IMG/VR virus record: IMGVR_UViG_3300048088_000770
Span: 1 to 55,861 of that record
Direction: 5' to 3' (one strand)
Source: a virus
DNA: 55,861 bases
Below the pieces are notes generated by a model, which saw only the letters and a list, made by a program, of their open reading frames with translations, made no database searches and was not told where the DNA came from. The position numbers and the translations under genes were made by a program. Below are positions 6,601 through 52,396 of this stretch, one piece after another (position 1 is the stretch's first letter; every line of letters begins with the position of its first letter).

Positions 6601-8403
6601 TTACGCGGCGAGCTTTCGGTACAGCTCGATCAGCTCGGCGGCGTTGGCAGCGACTAGAGCGGCAGCCTCGTCAGGACAGACGCTGTTCCCGATAAGCCGC
6701 ACCTGGTCCGTCTTGTTGATGCCGCGCCATTCCTCGGCGCAGGTTTCCGGGTCAACGAACAGGCCGCGGTCGATGATGTAGCTGTCCGGAAAGCCTTGCG
6801 CCTTCTTCAGCTCTGGCGGTTGCAGCATCCGCAGAGTGATGTCCACCAGCACGTAGCCGCCAACCATCACCATTTCGGCGGGGTCTTTGAAGTGCTCCGG
6901 CAGGTATTCGTGCATGAAGGCTGCGCAACGGCGGGCGCCTTTCATCTGCTCCGGCGTCAGCTTGTCAGGCACCTGCACCACTTCGACCAGCGCGACCCGA
7001 TCCTTCGTCGGCAGGGTATGCATCGGCTCGGTGAGCGAAATGCCGTCCTTCTCGTTGCCGTAGTACTTCACCAGGTAGGCGTTGACCAATCGCTGGTTGG
7101 CGCCTGATTGGCAGATAGTCGAGATCGGGTCGTAGGCCGAACGGCCGTCTCCTTTGTAATACCCGCCATTCGCCTGTTCGAAGAACGCAGCGACGACACC
7201 GTGTCGCGCGGCACCGGCCAGTACGGTCTGTGTTGGCTCGTCCGGCGAGCTGCCAACGGCGTTCTGCCCGAAGGCCGTCATGTGTGCGGCAACCATCGCG
7301 AAGTGGCCGCCTTTGACCTGGGCGACCTGCGTGCGCATTGGTTCTTGCGCGTCGAAGTTGCGTTGAGATGAGCCGTTGGCGCACTCGGTGAGAAACGGTG
7401 CCACTACCGGCTGCACTAACGCGTGGTGCGTGCCGCCGGCGCTGATGGTAGAGAGTACTTCATCCACGCCGTGGGTACTGGTGTGTGATTCCGAGGTGCC
7501 GCGCATTGGGACAATGAACGGCTTCGTGCTGGTAAGCACATGTCGCCAGCAGCCCTTGGCCACTCGGCGCATTGTGTTCTTCGCCATCTCTTTTTCACGA
7601 AAGATCGTGCGGCCGAGATTGCTCCAGTCGATGCATTCCGCCGCGCTGCGCCATGGAAGCTGCTTTCCGATAGGCTTCTTGTGCCGAACCGCTTCCGGCC
7701 AAACGATCGGCTGCCCGTCGCTGCGTGCGACCAGGTAAAGGCGCTTGCGGATTGTCGGGGCGCCGGCGTTTGCGGCAATCCGTTCGCGCCACTCCACGTT
7801 GTAACCAAGACCTCGCACCAGGTCCGCAACCGGCACGAAATCACCGATGGATTCGATAATCTCCTGCATGTCTGGATGATCGGCAGGAAGCCCAGTGCTG
7901 AGCGCCGCGATGAATGACCGGAAGGTTCGCCCCTTCTCAGCCTTGATTGGCTGCCCTTCTTCATCAATAGGGCCCCAATCGCAGAATTCCTCAACATTTT
8001 CCAAAAAGAGGAGGCGAGGGCGAGTCGCGTAGGCCCATCGAACAACCACCCACGCCAGCCCGCGAACTTTGCGATCGCGCGGCGCGCCACCCTTTGCCTT
8101 GCTGTGGTGGCGGCAATCCGGCGAGGCCCAGAGAATCCCGACAGGCTGGCCGCCAGTTGCCAGCACTGGATCAACCTCGAACACGTCGGCCACGTAATGG
8201 GCTGTCTCCGGATGATTGGCTCGGTGCACAGCCAGGGCGATCTGATTATGGTTTACGGCCACGTCCGGTTCTCGGTAAGCCCGGGCGATGCCGGTACTAG
8301 CTCCGCCCCCGCCGGCGAACAGATCAACCACCAGCTCCTTCTGGAAAGGCAGGCCCATGCTCAATGGCTGAAGTCTGTCTGCGTGCTTTTTGAATGCGGT
8401 CAT
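6601..8403 (-). CDS. dcm: DNA (cytosine-5) methyltransferase
   Basis: A 600-residue C5-type DNA methyltransferase that would modify phage and host DNA, probably to evade restriction. Motif I is DLFAGGGGASTG (residues 27-38). The catalytic loop is SPDCRHHS with the nucleophile Cys97, in place of the common PCQ form. The ENV motif IV/VI landmark is at 135-137 and motif X is LIGNSVCPDEAAALVAAN near the C-terminus. The length is greater than in standalone bacterial Dcm, with a large target-recognition region at about 200-480. No nuclease gene is adjacent, so it is probably an orphan enzyme. It lies immediately downstream of the DGR reverse transcriptase in the same direction. Confidence 0.92.
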   Translation of the reverse strand: MTAFKKHADRLQPLSMGLPFQKELVVDLFAGGGGASTGIARAYREPDVAVNHNQIALAVHRANHPETAHYVADVFEVDPVLATGGQPVGILWASPDCRHHSKAKGGAPRDRKVRGLAWVVVRWAYATRPRLLFLENVEEFCDWGPIDEEGQPIKAEKGRTFRSFIAALSTGLPADHPDMQEIIESIGDFVPVADLVRGLGYNVEWRERIAANAGAPTIRKRLYLVARSDGQPIVWPEAVRHKKPIGKQLPWRSAAECIDWSNLGRTIFREKEMAKNTMRRVAKGCWRHVLTSTKPFIVPMRGTSESHTSTHGVDEVLSTISAGGTHHALVQPVVAPFLTECANGSSQRNFDAQEPMRTQVAQVKGGHFAMVAAHMTAFGQNAVGSSPDEPTQTVLAGAARHGVVAAFFEQANGGYYKGDGRSAYDPISTICQSGANQRLVNAYLVKYYGNEKDGISLTEPMHTLPTKDRVALVEVVQVPDKLTPEQMKGARRCAAFMHEYLPEHFKDPAEMVMVGGYVLVDITLRMLQPPELKKAQGFPDSYIIDRGLFVDPETCAEEWRGINKTDQVRLIGNSVCPDEAAALVAANAAELIELYRKLAA

Positions 8404-29566: not shown

Positions 29567-29743
29567 ATGGCAACTATCAACCTCAAGGCCTACTACCCCT
29601 GGTGGTTCAGGTTCTACGTTGTGGCCGTGCACACCTTTGCCTTTCTCGCTGGCCTTGAAGCCGATGAGAAAGTGCTGCAGCGACATGCCCGCGCAGCCAA
29701 GCGTTACCGCGAGATCATACCGACTGACGAGGCGACCCAATGA
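29567..29743 (+). CDS. Small aromatic membrane-associated protein
   Basis: A 58-residue frame (MATINLKAYYPWWFRFYVVA then VHTFAFLAGLEADEKVL). It has one hydrophobic segment and a basic helical end (HARAAKRYREI). ATGA overlap downstream. Function unknown. Confidence 0.55.
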   Translation: MATINLKAYYPWWFRFYVVAVHTFAFLAGLEADEKVLQRHARAAKRYREIIPTDEATQ

Positions 29744-30174
29744 CCACGATCGCCTATAAGGACGGGATCATCGCCTATGACGGTCGGGCAACCACCAGTA
29801 GCGGCACCATTGTCTATGACGACTTCGAGAAATGCTTGGAGCGTGATGGGGTTAAGTTCGTTGTCTGCGGCAGCCTCTCTGGTGCCAACAAGTTGCTCGA
29901 TGCCTATTTCGGCGATCCTCAGACGTCCGTTCAGATGAGTGCGTTGGTAGTGTCCGAGGGAGAGGTCTGGTACATCAGCCACGATGACGAAGACGGCATC
30001 GAGAAGAGCAAGGTGCTGCCTGACCGTCCATATGCCATTGGCAGTGGCTCCGATCACGCTTACACCGCAATGGACATGGGCGCATCTGCCTACCAAGCAG
30101 TCGAGATGGCCATGAAGCGTGACAGTTGCACTGGCGGGAAGATCAGAACGCTCACCGTGAAGGTTGAGCAGTAG
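29740..30174 (+). CDS. HslV/proteasome-like Ntn-hydrolase protein
   Basis: A 144-residue protein with the proteasome/HslV pattern: MTTIAYKDGIIAYDGRATTS at the start (Thr2 as potential nucleophile), and YAIGSGSDHAYTAMDMGASA, YQAVEMAMKRD toward the end. This is a family seen near terminase genes of several phages. A catalytic protease, a shell protein or an inactive relative are all possible. No ATPase partner is encoded here. Confidence 0.75.
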   Translation: MTTIAYKDGIIAYDGRATTSSGTIVYDDFEKCLERDGVKFVVCGSLSGANKLLDAYFGDPQTSVQMSALVVSEGEVWYISHDDEDGIEKSKVLPDRPYAIGSGSDHAYTAMDMGASAYQAVEMAMKRDSCTGGKIRTLTVKVEQ

Positions 30175-40491: not shown

Positions 40492-40673
40492 CAGAGGACC
40501 CCGATTTTCGCAGCCGATGCTGGCTGGTGAAGAACGGGGTTCCTTTTGATCGGGTGTTTGACTGCGGTTTGCTGGCTGATTACGAGCGCATGGCGTTCTC
40601 GATCATGTTTTCCGAGTTCGAAGGCGCTGGCGACTGGAATTGGTCGAGCCTGCAGTTTGACAAGAGGAAATGA
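40084..40673 (+). CDS. Tail assembly chaperone, -1 frameshift form
   Basis: Ribosomes slipping one base back at the slippery site leave the first frame and read 61 further codons, LTEDPDFRSRCWLVKNGVPF, DRVFDCGLLADYERMAFSIM and on to SSLQFDKRK, ending at 40671-40673. This is the gpGT-like arrangement of lambda and of Mu gp41/42. The extension contains tryptophans and an acidic middle like other T domains. The downstream gene starts in the stop of the extension as ATGA. Confidence 0.88.
40482..40488 (+). promoter_or_regulatory. Programmed -1 frameshift site AAAAAAC
   Basis: The bases A-AAA-AAC fall in the frame expected of the X-XXY-YYZ heptamer: GC[A AAA AAC] TGA. The zero-frame stop is immediately behind it. 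AAAAAAC is among the more efficient slippery heptamers in bacteria. Confidence 0.9.
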
Positions 40674-41158
40674 CCGTGGAATTCAAGAGCCTTGGCGCGC
40701 TGGCGCTGCACATGGCCTCGCAAGAGATGGCGTTGCTGGTCAGCTTGCACGAAGGCCTTGAGAAATGCGCAAGGCGGGTCGAGAAGACAGCTAAGGAGGA
40801 GATCGGACACTACCAGGCAGGTATTGGTCCGTTTCCAGCCTGGGAGGCTTTGGCAGATGCTACTGAAGCCTCAAAATCCCTCGCCGGATATCCAATGGAT
40901 GCGCCTCTGCTCGCCAGCGGTGAGATGCAAAACAGCATCACGCACACCACGCACGCACTGGAAGCGATCATCGGATCCACGGACGAGAAGATGGTCTATC
41001 ACGAATTCGGCACGCCAAAGATGCCGGCGCGCCCAGTGATGGGGCCGGCGGTCTTGCGCAACAAGGAGTACATCCGGCGTGTGCTTGGTGCGGCAACGGT
41101 CGCCGGATTGGTTGGTGGTTCAGCGATCCACCACTCGCTGGGTTACGACTCAGATTAG
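40670..41158 (+). CDS. Phage virion morphogenesis / gp10-like protein
   Basis: A 162-residue protein (MTVEFKSLGALALHMASQEM). HK97-gp10/G-like landmarks include KCARRVEKTAKEEIGHYQ and YHEFGTPKMPARPVMGPAVL, the common pattern for tail-completion proteins. It starts in the stop of the frameshift product. It is before the tape measure but separated from it by the reverse-strand moron. Confidence 0.72.
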   Translation: MTVEFKSLGALALHMASQEMALLVSLHEGLEKCARRVEKTAKEEIGHYQAGIGPFPAWEALADATEASKSLAGYPMDAPLLASGEMQNSITHTTHALEAIIGSTDEKMVYHEFGTPKMPARPVMGPAVLRNKEYIRRVLGAATVAGLVGGSAIHHSLGYDSD

Positions 41159-41172
41159 CGCCGCGATTTAAT

Positions 41173-41640
41173 TCAGTGCTTAATGAGAAAAGACTTGGGG
41201 AGCCAGAACGGTTTCTTATTTGCTTCGGCAACCCATACACTTCCCTCGTCATCTTTAATGTTCATTATCGTCACTTTGAGCTTGCCCTTTCCCTCCGTGC
41301 AAACTGAAAGAGCCTCATCAAAAGTTCTGGCGCCTGATTTGTTACGCAAGGAGTCAAGCAACTGCTTTGTTTCTCCCTCGTATTCTGGTTCCCCTGTATC
41401 TGGAGAGATATTTGGTCGCTTCCCCGTGAACTGGTAGGTCATCACCACAAGCCCTGCGACGGTGTTTGTGTAGTCTGCGAGCTCTCGCGTAGGACAGGCA
41501 TAATAAAACTCGCTCTTTGAAGAGTAAGTCGTGACTTTATCGCCAGGAGAGCAAGCTACTACAGAGCACGAGTTAGTTTCGGCATCTGAAGCGATAGCTG
41601 CCGAGCTGACAAACAGCGAAAGAAAAATCCATTTATTCAT
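41173..41640 (-). CDS. Secreted moron protein
   Basis: A 155-residue protein on the opposite strand to the tail genes. It begins with a signal peptide (MNKWIFLSLFVSSAAIASDA), cleavage probable after the second Ala-Ser. Five cysteines (TNSCSVVACSPGDK, YYACPTRELAD, LSVCTEGKG) suggest a disulfide-bonded periplasmic or envelope protein. It has no phage structural motif. Expression from the prophage would alter the lysogen. Family unknown. Confidence 0.7.
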   Translation of the reverse strand: MNKWIFLSLFVSSAAIASDAETNSCSVVACSPGDKVTTYSSKSEFYYACPTRELADYTNTVAGLVVMTYQFTGKRPNISPDTGEPEYEGETKQLLDSLRNKSGARTFDEALSVCTEGKGKLKVTIMNIKDDEGSVWVAEANKKPFWLPKSFLIKH

Positions 41641-41643
41641 GGC

Positions 41644-41886
41644 TCACCCAAAGACAACCGAATAGATAACGAACAGGACAACGATCAGTGCTGAACCGGC
41701 AAAGATCATTACCACGCTGCTGCATGTGAAAACAAAAAGGCCTGTCAGTAAGTCGATGCCTGGCCCGGCCTTTTTTCTTCGTAGCTGCGGTCGAGCGACG
41801 GCCTCTTTTGGCTCTATCGCTCGCATCGAGCCGACATCCTGAATCCGGCCATTCACCCACTGGTACGTGCGCTGATTATTTGCCAT
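41644..41886 (-). CDS. Small membrane moron protein
   Basis: An 80-residue protein (MANNQRTYQWVNGRIQDVGS). A basic middle (EAVARPQLRRKKAGPG) is followed by two adjoining hydrophobic segments (LLTGLFVFTCSSVVMIFAGS, ALIVVLFVIYSVV). It ends three bases before the secreted protein's ATG and is probably translated with it. Its promoter would lie within the start of the tape measure gene. Confidence 0.65.
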   Translation of the reverse strand: MANNQRTYQWVNGRIQDVGSMRAIEPKEAVARPQLRRKKAGPGIDLLTGLFVFTCSSVVMIFAGSALIVVLFVIYSVVFG

Positions 41887-41916
41887 GTGATCCACCACCA
41901 CAAAGGGAATGTCATT

Positions 41917-44028
41917 ATGACAGCAGAAGCCTATTCCGTCGCTGTCAAGCTATCGCTGATCAACCACGTCAGTGCCGGCATGGCCCTCATCAGCAAAAGC
42001 CTGGCTGGCGCTGGTCAGGATGTCGATAAGCTCAACGCAAAACTGGCCTCAATCGGCAAGCAGGCGGCCATCGGCGGGGCGATGGTTGCTGGCGGCCTGG
42101 GCCTGGCCGCGATGTTCAAGGCTCCGCTAGATGAGGCTAAGAAGTTCCAGACGGAAATGGCCAAGTTCTCGCTTTACGGTATGTCTGATTCAGTAAATGC
42201 CGAGTCGGAACGCTTCGTTAAGGGCATGAACTCCATCGGCACCAGCATCACCACCAACATGAAGCTCTTCACCGAGGCGCAAGGCGTGTTTCGGGAAAGC
42301 GGGTTGCCTGGTATGGAAGCGCTGGAAGGGGCCAAGATCGCCGCGCCGGTTCTGGCCAAGATAGCCTACGCGACGTCAGGCCTAAGCGAAGAATCGCAAG
42401 CTGTCATGAAAACCAGCAGCATGGCGATGATGCGCTACATCGAAGATTCAGGTGGCCTGAAGTCTCCGCAGCGCTTCAACGAATTGGCGGACGCCGGCTG
42501 GAAGATGACTCAGACTTCTGGCGGCTCAGTTAACTGGGAGCAGTTGCGTCAATTTAAGGCTCGCGGCGGTATTGCGGCCATGAATATGAGTGATGACGCG
42601 GTGGCCATGATGGAGCCGATTATCACCATGCTCAAGGGCCAGACAGCCGGCTTCTCGATTCGGACCGCCTACAACCGGCTGAATGGTATCGTCAAGATTC
42701 CCAATCAGGTCGCGCATGAACTTGTAGCCAATAAAATCTGGGACGAGAACAAGGTCATCTGGAACAAGCAGGGCGGTATCAAGGCGTTCAAAGGCAACCC
42801 GCTGATCGGCGCCGAGATGTTCAGCCAGAATCCAACAGAGTTTTACGAAAAAATCATCATGCCGATGCATAAGCGCATGGGTATCACTTCGGATTCCGCT
42901 ATCGGACAATCGAACGCCATGCTGTTCGGGTCAACCGGCGGTGCGATGTTCACTCTGATCGACAAGAACATCGCGAAACTGCATCACTCGCTTGAAGCGC
43001 AACACAAAGCCCTTGGCATTGATGCCTCGGTCGAGAAGACCCAGAAAACCCTCGGCGGTAAAGAGGTCGAGCTGGCAGCCAAGTGGAAAGATTTGATGCT
43101 AGCACTGGGTGACAATGTGCTACCGCTGGCGATCAAGGCCGTCACTGCGCTGAACGTCGAAATTATCAAAATGACCGCCTGGGTCAACGCCAACCCTGAA
43201 AAGGTCAAGGCGCTGACCTACGCGCTGATGGGATTGTCGGCCTTCCTGATCACTGGTGGCCTGATCAATCTGATCATCGCTGCGGGGCGCGGCTTCTGGA
43301 TGTTGGGCAAGGTGCTGATGTTTATGGGTGGCCCGCTTGTGCCCATTATGGCTAGATTTGGCACTTATCTCGTTCTGTTCGTGGTGGATGCCTTTAAAGC
43401 TGTCGGCATGTTCCTGACTTCTGGCTTCCTTCGCGGCATAGTCATGGCGTTCCTGTCTCCGCTGAAGCTTTTAGGGCAAGGAATCATGCTTCTTGGGCGC
43501 GCTATGCTGATGAACCCAATAGGCTTGGCGATCACACTGATCATTGCTGCTGGATTCCTTCTCTGGAACAACTGGAAGGAAATCAGTAGTGCTTTGAAAC
43601 TCATGTGGAATGACATGAAGACGGGTTTCGTGCAGTTGTTTCAGGGAGATATCGGCGGCGCGTTCAAGTCATTCGCATTGGTCTTCCTGACCGGTTGGCA
43701 GACGATTTTCAACACGCTTATAGCAGGTGCGAACCTGATCCTTCCATCTTCGATGCAGTTGTCCAAGACTACTTTCGCTGACGATTTCCGTGGCAGCGGC
43801 GACAAGAAGGCTGCGTGGTCGCCACTTATTGCTCCGGTTCCGGGCAAGTCTGGCGCCGATGCGCCTCAGCCGATCAATCTCTACATCGACGGCAAGCAGG
43901 TCAGCGACGTGGTGATCCAGCGCATGGCGAAGGAAGCCGCCAAACCAAGGACAGGAACGCAGGGCTTCGACCCAAACCGCAGCATGCTGATGCCAGGAAC
44001 CCCGAGCGCAGCCTATCCAAGGGGATAA
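41917..44028 (+). CDS. Tail tape measure protein
   Basis: A 703-residue protein. The start MTAEAYSVAVKLSLINHVSA is preferred over a longer one with few features. The first 300 residues are helical (ALISKSLAGAGQDVDKLNAK). Hydrophobic segments follow (AAIGGAMVAGGLGLAAMF; YALMGLSAFLITGGLINLII; LAITLIIAAGFLLWNNW), typical of tape measures, which set tail length and enter the host membrane on DNA injection. The length predicts a tail of around 100 nm. Confidence 0.9.
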   Translation: MTAEAYSVAVKLSLINHVSAGMALISKSLAGAGQDVDKLNAKLASIGKQAAIGGAMVAGGLGLAAMFKAPLDEAKKFQTEMAKFSLYGMSDSVNAESERFVKGMNSIGTSITTNMKLFTEAQGVFRESGLPGMEALEGAKIAAPVLAKIAYATSGLSEESQAVMKTSSMAMMRYIEDSGGLKSPQRFNELADAGWKMTQTSGGSVNWEQLRQFKARGGIAAMNMSDDAVAMMEPIITMLKGQTAGFSIRTAYNRLNGIVKIPNQVAHELVANKIWDENKVIWNKQGGIKAFKGNPLIGAEMFSQNPTEFYEKIIMPMHKRMGITSDSAIGQSNAMLFGSTGGAMFTLIDKNIAKLHHSLEAQHKALGIDASVEKTQKTLGGKEVELAAKWKDLMLALGDNVLPLAIKAVTALNVEIIKMTAWVNANPEKVKALTYALMGLSAFLITGGLINLIIAAGRGFWMLGKVLMFMGGPLVPIMARFGTYLVLFVVDAFKAVGMFLTSGFLRGIVMAFLSPLKLLGQGIMLLGRAMLMNPIGLAITLIIAAGFLLWNNWKEISSALKLMWNDMKTGFVQLFQGDIGGAFKSFALVFLTGWQTIFNTLIAGANLILPSSMQLSKTTFADDFRGSGDKKAAWSPLIAPVPGKSGADAPQPINLYIDGKQVSDVVIQRMAKEAAKPRTGTQGFDPNRSMLMPGTPSAAYPRG

Positions 44029-50653: not shown

Positions 50654-51772
50654 TTGTTGTCGCTATATAAATCTAGAGAAGAATCGCTTGACGCATTGCG
50701 TGGAGTTGCGGCACTTGCTGTGGTTGTGGCGCATACAACTATAGCCGGGCTATATAATGTAGAGCCATTATGGTCGTGGCTAAAGTGGTCTCCTTTAAAG
50801 ATACTTTGGTCTGGCCACCAGGCTGTAATACTGTTCTTTGTTCTTAGTGGATTTGCTCTTGTTAGAATGTGGCAGGGAATTAAAAATAATCGATATGATG
50901 CATATTTTGTATCTAGAGTTGTAAGGTTGTTTCCGCCATATATTGCATCAGTTGTTGTAGCGTTTTTTGTCTATGTTGCGGTCTCTGGTGTCGTCGACTG
51001 GGATAAAGGATGGATGGGCGTTCCAAAGCCCGATTTTAGTTTAGGTGGATTGTTTAATCATCTGTTGATGATTGGTCACTTCAATACCTCGGAGGTGAAC
51101 CCTCCTATTTGGTCTATTGTGCATGAGATGCGTATATCCATCGCCTTCCCATTGATTTATTTTCTCGTTTCTAGGTTTGGTGCATCGGCTGTAAGTGGAT
51201 TCTATGTGTTGTCAGCATGGATCGGCTGGGCAATGCTTGGGAACGTGCAGCTCTCTGCGGTTCAAGGTGATCTGATACAGACGCTTCACTATTCAACGTT
51301 CTTCGCTACAGGAGCATTTATAGCGTTGCGGCAAGACTTATTGAGCGGAATGTTCGTTAGAATTGTATCAGCACCAAGAATCGCGCTTTGGTTTTTGGCA
51401 TTGATGCTATATGCATATCCATTTGATAATCCGTGGAATCTCGGTTATCGAGCATTTGGAGATTTGGCTATAGGTCTCGGATCGGCATTTATTGTATGTC
51501 TTGCGCTTACCATGAAATCTGAGGCGCTTGTTAAGCTAGGCGGTTACCTTGGCAAGGTATCTTATAGTCTTTACCTGAACCACATACTGGCTCTGAATCT
51601 TTCACTATTGTTTGTGTATCGATCTTTTGGCGCTACAGCTGTTTGGGTGGTGACGATTGCAGGGGCTTTGCTCTTGTCATCGTTGATGCACAAGTTTGTA
51701 GAGATGCCATCAATCTCCGCTTCGAGATACCTGAGAAATAAAATTATGTTCGGCTCTAGATCTTCAGCGTAG
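50654..51772 (+). CDS. OafA-type O-antigen acyltransferase
   Basis: A 372-residue integral membrane acyltransferase_3 protein. The start motif is ESLDALRGVAALAVVVAHTT (catalytic His in VVAHTT). About ten membrane helices follow (AVILFFVLSGFALVRMW, FPLIYFLVSRFGASAVSGFY). It probably acetylates O-antigen and changes phage receptors in the lysogen. It uses TTG at 50654 behind GGAG. The coding is clearly richer in A and T than neighbouring genes, a sign of recent transfer as a moron. Confidence 0.88.
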   Translation: MLSLYKSREESLDALRGVAALAVVVAHTTIAGLYNVEPLWSWLKWSPLKILWSGHQAVILFFVLSGFALVRMWQGIKNNRYDAYFVSRVVRLFPPYIASVVVAFFVYVAVSGVVDWDKGWMGVPKPDFSLGGLFNHLLMIGHFNTSEVNPPIWSIVHEMRISIAFPLIYFLVSRFGASAVSGFYVLSAWIGWAMLGNVQLSAVQGDLIQTLHYSTFFATGAFIALRQDLLSGMFVRIVSAPRIALWFLALMLYAYPFDNPWNLGYRAFGDLAIGLGSAFIVCLALTMKSEALVKLGGYLGKVSYSLYLNHILALNLSLLFVYRSFGATAVWVVTIAGALLLSSLMHKFVEMPSISASRYLRNKIMFGSRSSA

Positions 51773-51916: not shown

Positions 51917-52396
51917 ATGCGCATTTCACAAAATGGCATCTCTGTACTGAAGCACTTCGAAAGCTGCTCGCTATCGGCTTACCCAGATCCAGCCACCGGT
52001 GGTGCACCATGGACGATTGGCTGGGGACATACCGGGCCGGAAGTCGTGCGCGGCCTCGTTTGGACTCAGGCCAAGGCAGACGCTCAGTTACTGAATGACC
52101 TCGCATCGCGAGAGATGGCAGTTTCCTGCGCGGTGACCACCAGTATCAATCAAGGACAGTTCGACGCGTTGGTTGATTTTGCCTACAACCTGGGCATTGG
52201 CAATTTTCAACATTCCACGCTGCTCCGACTGATCAACGCCGGCGATATGGACGGCGCCTTTGCACAGTTCGCACGCTGGAATCGGGCAGCAGGTGTTCCG
52301 ATGCGAGGTCTGACCCGGCGTCGTGCCGCTGATGCCGCGCTGTTCGCCGGGAAGACCGGAACCCAAGCGATCGCCATCGGAGTGGCTGCCGCATAA
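51917..52396 (+). CDS. Phage lysozyme, GH24 endolysin
   Basis: A 159-residue muramidase. The catalytic triad of the T4-lysozyme family is visible as Glu15, Asp24 and Thr33 (FESCSLSAYPDPATGGAPWT), followed by IGWGHTG. DFAYNLGIGNFQHSTLLRLI and the GLTRRRAADAALF end are typical. No signal peptide or SAR domain, so release needs a holin. Confidence 0.93.
   Translation: MRISQNGISVLKHFESCSLSAYPDPATGGAPWTIGWGHTGPEVVRGLVWTQAKADAQLLNDLASREMAVSCAVTTSINQGQFDALVDFAYNLGIGNFQHSTLLRLINAGDMDGAFAQFARWNRAAGVPMRGLTRRRAADAALFAGKTGTQAIAIGVAAA

Follow-up and report, generated by a model that had tools for sequence, protein, structure and literature searches.

Two minus-strand genes, P0001 and P0002, set between the neck and tape measure genes of a temperate phage, probably form a superinfection-exclusion cassette that is expressed during lysogeny, acts in the cell envelope and blocks a late step of phage entry. 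The slot that holds them is kept throughout the phage group rather than being a single insertion, and the exported partner genes behind P0001 are exchanged. Both points were missed in the preliminary description of this DNA.

The window, meaning the whole stretch of DNA analyzed, is a viral record of 55,861 bases. Its gene content reads as that of a contractile-tailed temperate phage, with an integrase (1-1233), an endolysin (51917-52396) and sheath, neck, tape measure and baseplate genes all present. Close relatives are found in the genomes of Pseudomonas fluorescens HK44, where P0001 is missing, and P. costantinii, and the phage belongs to an undescribed family of Pseudomonas prophages. Further cargo of the window includes an O-acetyltransferase after the tail fibre (phrog_3333, 50654-51772), which is likely an O-antigen-modifying conversion gene. 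The early region carries a 600-aa DNA methyltransferase on the minus strand (phrog_116, 6601-8403) and the morphogenesis region an HslV-family peptidase (phrog_1040, 29740-30174).

The two open reading frames lie exactly where they had first been described. P0001 (41644-41886) is the first gene on the minus strand and the conserved gene of the cassette, and P0002 (41173-41640) is the second. P0001 is a small membrane protein, as the preliminary description had it, and has 80 aa. Its N-terminal half is basic (9 K/R versus 4 D/E), and the alignment shows an N-terminal RTYQWVNGRIQDV motif. Its C-terminal 35 residues are uncharged and largely hydrophobic, and both a hairpin and a single long helix would fit. 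P0002 is an exported protein of 155 aa with a cleavable-type signal peptide (MNKWIFLSLFVSSAAIAS). Secretion had been recognized from the start, but the protein contains four cysteines (C25, C30, C49 and C114) and not five. All four are invariant in 26 of 26 non-redundant homologs, together with G33, T51, Y57, G73, P76, S79, T82, G83, P85, R99, D108, N127, W136, W146 and P148. The conserved loop reads TGxxPNxSPxTGxPE. P0002 has a pairwise dN/dS of about 0.05-0.17; for P0001, most values fall at 0.09-0.18, with a maximum of 0.29. These low ratios show purifying selection and mark P0001 and P0002 as genuine coding genes rather than chance open reading frames, and the selection also favors the exclusion reading. 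The pair is almost certainly co-transcribed and translationally coupled, judging from the junction at 41638-41652 on the minus strand, since the P0001 stop codon TGA falls inside a Shine-Dalgarno-like GGGTGAG 3 nt before the ATG of P0002. P0002 starts at GGGTGAGCC-ATG, with the P0001 stop inside GGGTGAGCC.

The upstream border of the slot is a neck/tail completion protein on the plus strand (40670-41158; phrog_26, E 5.8e-12), which had been called gp10-like before. Downstream lies the tail length tape measure protein (41917-44028, plus strand; phrog_28, E 1.9e-31), whose ATG at 41917 is preceded by the ribosome binding site AAAGGGA. A divergent gap of 30 nt (41887-41916) separates this ATG from the start of P0001. 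A promoter scan found no sigma-70-type promoter on the minus strand for the pair, which counts against the exclusion reading. An extended -10 candidate in the tape measure start, TGTCATAAT, was rejected because the ATTATG start dictates CATAAT and the TG lacks conservation. The slot is empty in the Komagataeibacter phage phiKX1, where a neck homolog is followed after 16 nt by a 2.2-kb gene in the tape measure position. Nothing lies between these two genes, in keeping with the normally tight cluster assumed in the preliminary description.

The insertion recurs in other tails. Among 34 contigs recovered with the tape measure as bait, 31 carry a minus-strand P0001 homolog that directly precedes the tape measure. 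The partner behind P0001 belongs to the P0002 family (type A) at 10 of the 34 tape measure loci and to type B at 15, with type B fragments at 2 more. Type C, a lipoprotein with a lipobox (PF08139), occupies 2 loci, and type D, a zinc ribbon protein with one membrane span, occupies 3. Two loci have no partner, and the partner gene is absent from the relatives L006 and L124. Loci beyond the 34 add examples of types A to D and one extra secreted partner of 129 aa, unlike A to D, directly after P0001 (L119 6238-6627, plus strand in the locus). At least five unrelated families alternate behind P0001, and judging from the sequences every family has a signal for export or for the membrane. Type B partners are secreted proteins of about 100 aa with two invariant cysteines (e.g., L010 4420-4728, minus strand). 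They were seen only in the neck/tape measure slot, belong to no known family and have a pairwise dN/dS of 0.07-0.22. Type D proteins combine an N-terminal zinc ribbon and one membrane span with a variable C-terminal domain. They lie directly behind P0001, on the minus strand at L031 3974-4726, L028 4232-4765, L011 3953-4732 and L090 2600-3406, and likewise at L127. In a truncated prophage remnant (L089, G106:C3:117000-124000), only the neck, a type C partner, P0001 and the tape measure start are left, near ihfA- and merR-like open reading frames named by eye.

Partners of types A, B, C and D start a few bases after the P0001 stop, and their ribosome binding site consists of the last codons of P0001, mostly GGGTGA or CGGTGA. 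The translational coupling shared by four partner types argues for the exclusion reading, as does the minus-strand place conserved in 31 of 34 relatives despite swapped partners. The proposal that the pair is a moron also holds: the genes are accessory, stand off the structural operon (opposite or separate), are exchanged between phages and are missing from phiKX1. Neither protein had been assigned a family, and searches of Pfam, NCBIfam, PHROGs and PADLOC gave no significant match for either. A structural tail gene as homolog would have spoken against the preliminary description, but PHROGs and Pfam likewise show none at significant levels.

Homologs of P0002 outside tails were found by a genome scan and profile scans. 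One lies on the same strand, 48 nt after a CI-like repressor (L055), and others are near phage repressors (L060, L058) or near or beside integrases (L052, L040, L041). A relative in Phytobacter follows lambda-type gpJ, tail fibre and fibre-assembly genes (L043). At L041, a type II methyltransferase/restriction enzyme pair (PADLOC E 2e-88 and 6e-94) lies just upstream of the relative. In Pseudomonas sp. dw_612 (L037 7480-11012), P0002 and a P0001 remnant have a SLATT-type 2TM effector and an AbiEi homolog nearby, and the locus is possibly a defence hotspot. Two plus-strand relatives closely precede a tape measure (L061, L062), and two others stand outside recognized phage modules (L042, L044). 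The distribution of P0002 is that of mobile prophage cargo repeatedly linked to lysogeny control and antiphage genes, a link that is suggestive rather than statistical with about 11 independent context loci. Such neighbors support the exclusion reading. Against it, P0001 is missing beside some P0002 relatives (L038, L041-L044 and L055), so the two proteins need not work together.

Both genes are rare. In Pseudomonas species genomes, P0001 is found in 7 of 399 and P0002 in 3 of 399 (one partial), and several relatives also occur in the free-living bacteria Crenothrix and Ferriphaselus. P0002, P0001 and type B have no significant relative among the 50,697 phage records of INPHARED, and no P0002 relatives were found in plasmids. 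Searches of the Phytobacter family and of two class samples returned only already-known genomes.

In five relatives, the slot also holds regulatory genes that recall the immI region of P22. Three slots contain two divergent Arc-like ribbon-helix-helix genes and an antirepressor-type protein, recognized as such by PHROGs at L004 (2749-4273), as a Bro-N protein at L011 (2249-3893) and as an ORF6N/ORF6C protein at L090 (894-2502). A further module combines a single Arc-like gene with a Cro/CI-type regulator (L038 10500-12170), and similar genes are present, by inspection only, at L045 (11068-13453). P22 has mnt(-), arc(+) and ant(+), and sieA(-) is their neighbor. Because an immI-like module shares the slot and sieA adjoins mnt-arc-ant in P22, we read the module, by analogy, as an independent pointer to exclusion. 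The slot of the window itself does not contain the module.

Structure prediction, proposed earlier as a check, gives P0002 a helical insert and SH3-like strands. The AlphaFold2 model has a mean pLDDT of 75.6, with the five models spanning 56 to 76, and places helices 52-72 and 90-102 between Cys49 and Cys114, followed by the C-terminal strands. The confident, SH3-like type B model (pLDDT 86.8) also has a helical insertion and runs from a strand over Cys30, helices and Cys72 to further strands. Both models share the layout strand-Cys-helices-Cys-strands, but profile comparison gives no support for homology between the A and B partners. Foldseek returned mostly SH3/SH3b pieces, all of them weak (best E 0.7 for P0002 and 0.12 for type B), and no Pfam SH3 match was found. 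The C-terminal strands of both models are like bacterial SH3/SH3b domains in topology, whereas the helical insertion with conserved cysteines at its base and the weak scores are unlike them. SH3/SH3b domains are known from bacterial cell-wall enzymes, and the resemblance of the modelled partners raises the alternative of an envelope-modifying lysogenic conversion without antiphage function. The SH3-like domain of P0002 would then bind or remodel peptidoglycan or another periplasmic target, with P0001 as its anchor, and the lysogen would gain an envelope or stress benefit. The strong purifying selection and the relatives outside recognized phage modules would suit such a role. We nevertheless consider it unlikely given that the fold matches are weak and that the restriction-modification, SLATT/AbiEi and immI-like neighbors fit antiphage roles better.

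The choice of partner is associated with the tape measure. Type A versus type B tracks tape measure residues ~157-370 (28 loci; AUC 0.59-0.71), where the strongest segments reach p about 0.002, the lowest value that 500 permutations allow. The 28 sequences are related to one another and about 18 tests were made, hence the association is a lead only. Partner type showed no association with P0001, tape measure residues 1-80, the sheath, the tube or two downstream genes, and a weak one with the neck (p 0.014). All intact type B loci examined share one tape measure class (RFRSLGLGD or close). P0001 follows the tape measure loosely (rho 0.32); at L018, the tape measure is 84% identical and P0001 47% identical. 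The association lends some weight to the exclusion reading and is of interest because exclusion by Ltp of TP-J34 and by HK97 gp15 involves the tape measure (PMC10883804), and sensitivity to SNIPE maps to tape measure segments (PMC13190303).

The same association, together with the near-constant place next to the tape measure, could also speak for an accessory role in the phage's own infection or assembly. The pair might help its own tail in tape measure insertion or DNA entry, or regulate lysis in a holin/antiholin-like manner, since a small membrane protein with a periplasmic protein resembles lysis-control pairs. This is quite improbable because the cassette lies on the strand opposite the late operon, the P0002 family occurs in contexts without tail genes, and L006 and L124 do without the partner gene. 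The endolysin is encoded elsewhere, so a lysis cassette was rejected; this also favors exclusion. A prophage-expressed toxin or virulence factor, with P0002 secreted beyond the cell, would agree with the signal peptide, the cysteines and the moron location but is very improbable, as database searches gave no toxin family match, several relatives occur in the free-living bacteria named above, and the conserved coupling to a membrane protein and swaps with lipoprotein or membrane-anchored partners suggest the envelope rather than export beyond it. Among the roles first suggested for the pair, exclusion is favored by the repressor, integrase, restriction-modification, SLATT/AbiEi and immI-like contexts, while nothing points to virulence or toxicity.

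Under the exclusion reading, the cassette would be expressed from the prophage in the lysogen. P0001 would be an inner-membrane protein whose basic N-terminal half faces the cytoplasm, according to the positive-inside rule, and P0002 would be exported to the periplasm, where its cysteines are expected to pair as two disulfides. The two proteins might cooperate physically and jointly block an incoming phage after adsorption, likeliest while its tape measure or DNA crosses the periplasm and the inner membrane. The exchangeable specificity part may be the second gene, realized as the SH3-like types A and B, the lipoprotein C, the zinc-ribbon, single-span type D or the further secreted type. A possible though rather doubtful extension is that P0001 serves as a general membrane platform for coupled, interchangeable exported specificity proteins that recognize the middle of the incoming tape measure, so that a swap would change the target range. 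Several observations weigh against exclusion. P0001 does not track the tape measure at L018, the partner association comes from few related sequences and many tests, and purifying selection is strong where an arms race would be expected to bring diversification.

Single exclusion genes that neighbor the tape measure are already known. The literature searched gave no account of a cassette of an anchor and swappable partners fixed in place across a prophage family; what is new is that one anchor gene is conserved next to the tape measure while the exported partners coupled to it are exchanged. If the exclusion reading is true, comparing partner types in one genetic background would be a direct test of what an exclusion protein recognizes in the incoming phage. 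At least three uncharacterized exported families (A, B and D) are flagged as antiphage candidates, and the neck/tape measure gap is a locus to look for more.

Comparison with known exclusion systems reveals likeness in arrangement, but none of the proven exclusion proteins was matched by sequence or fold, which again counts against the exclusion reading. T4 Imm and Spackle likewise are a small membrane protein and a small secreted protein that both give exclusion, but their genes are not adjacent in T4. Spackle inhibits the tail-spike lysozyme, and Imm has two transmembrane segments, where the hydrophobic end of P0001 could be either a hairpin or one long helix. P0001 shows no sequence similarity to Imm (hhalign probability 5.6%, over one hydrophobic stretch). 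Type B matches Spackle (PF25676) at E 0.023, which fails the cutoff, and has a weak phrog_1586 match; profile alignments of the A and B partners with Spackle are confined to the signal peptide region. By fold, Spackle is not among the 50 PDB matches listed by Foldseek for P0002 and type B, which are mainly SH3. The type C lipobox recalls Cor of phi80/N15 and other exclusion lipoproteins, though type C is absent from the window and its match to Cor spans residues 1-25 only (E 0.006), so that membership was rejected. P22 SieA is encoded on the minus strand beside mnt-arc-ant, much as the cassette lies beside Arc/Ant-type genes in five relatives (L038 in part, L045 by inspection), but it is a single inner-membrane protein of 164 aa without detected sequence similarity. 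HK97 gp15 is, like P0001, a small protein predicted to lie in the membrane and encoded right before the tape measure, and it blocks DNA injection in dependence on the tail and tape measure (PMC10883804). The position of this known exclusion moron argues for the exclusion reading. In contrast to P0001, gp15 has 62 aa, lies on the strand of the tail genes, lacks an exported partner gene and belongs to a phage with a long non-contractile tail; P0001 has no sequence similarity to it (hhalign probability 1.5%). Given the negative Spackle, Imm, gp15 and SieA tests and the lack of significant database matches, the pair is an analogue rather than a family member. By analogy, the cassette may work like an injection-stage exclusion system that stands outside the known families.
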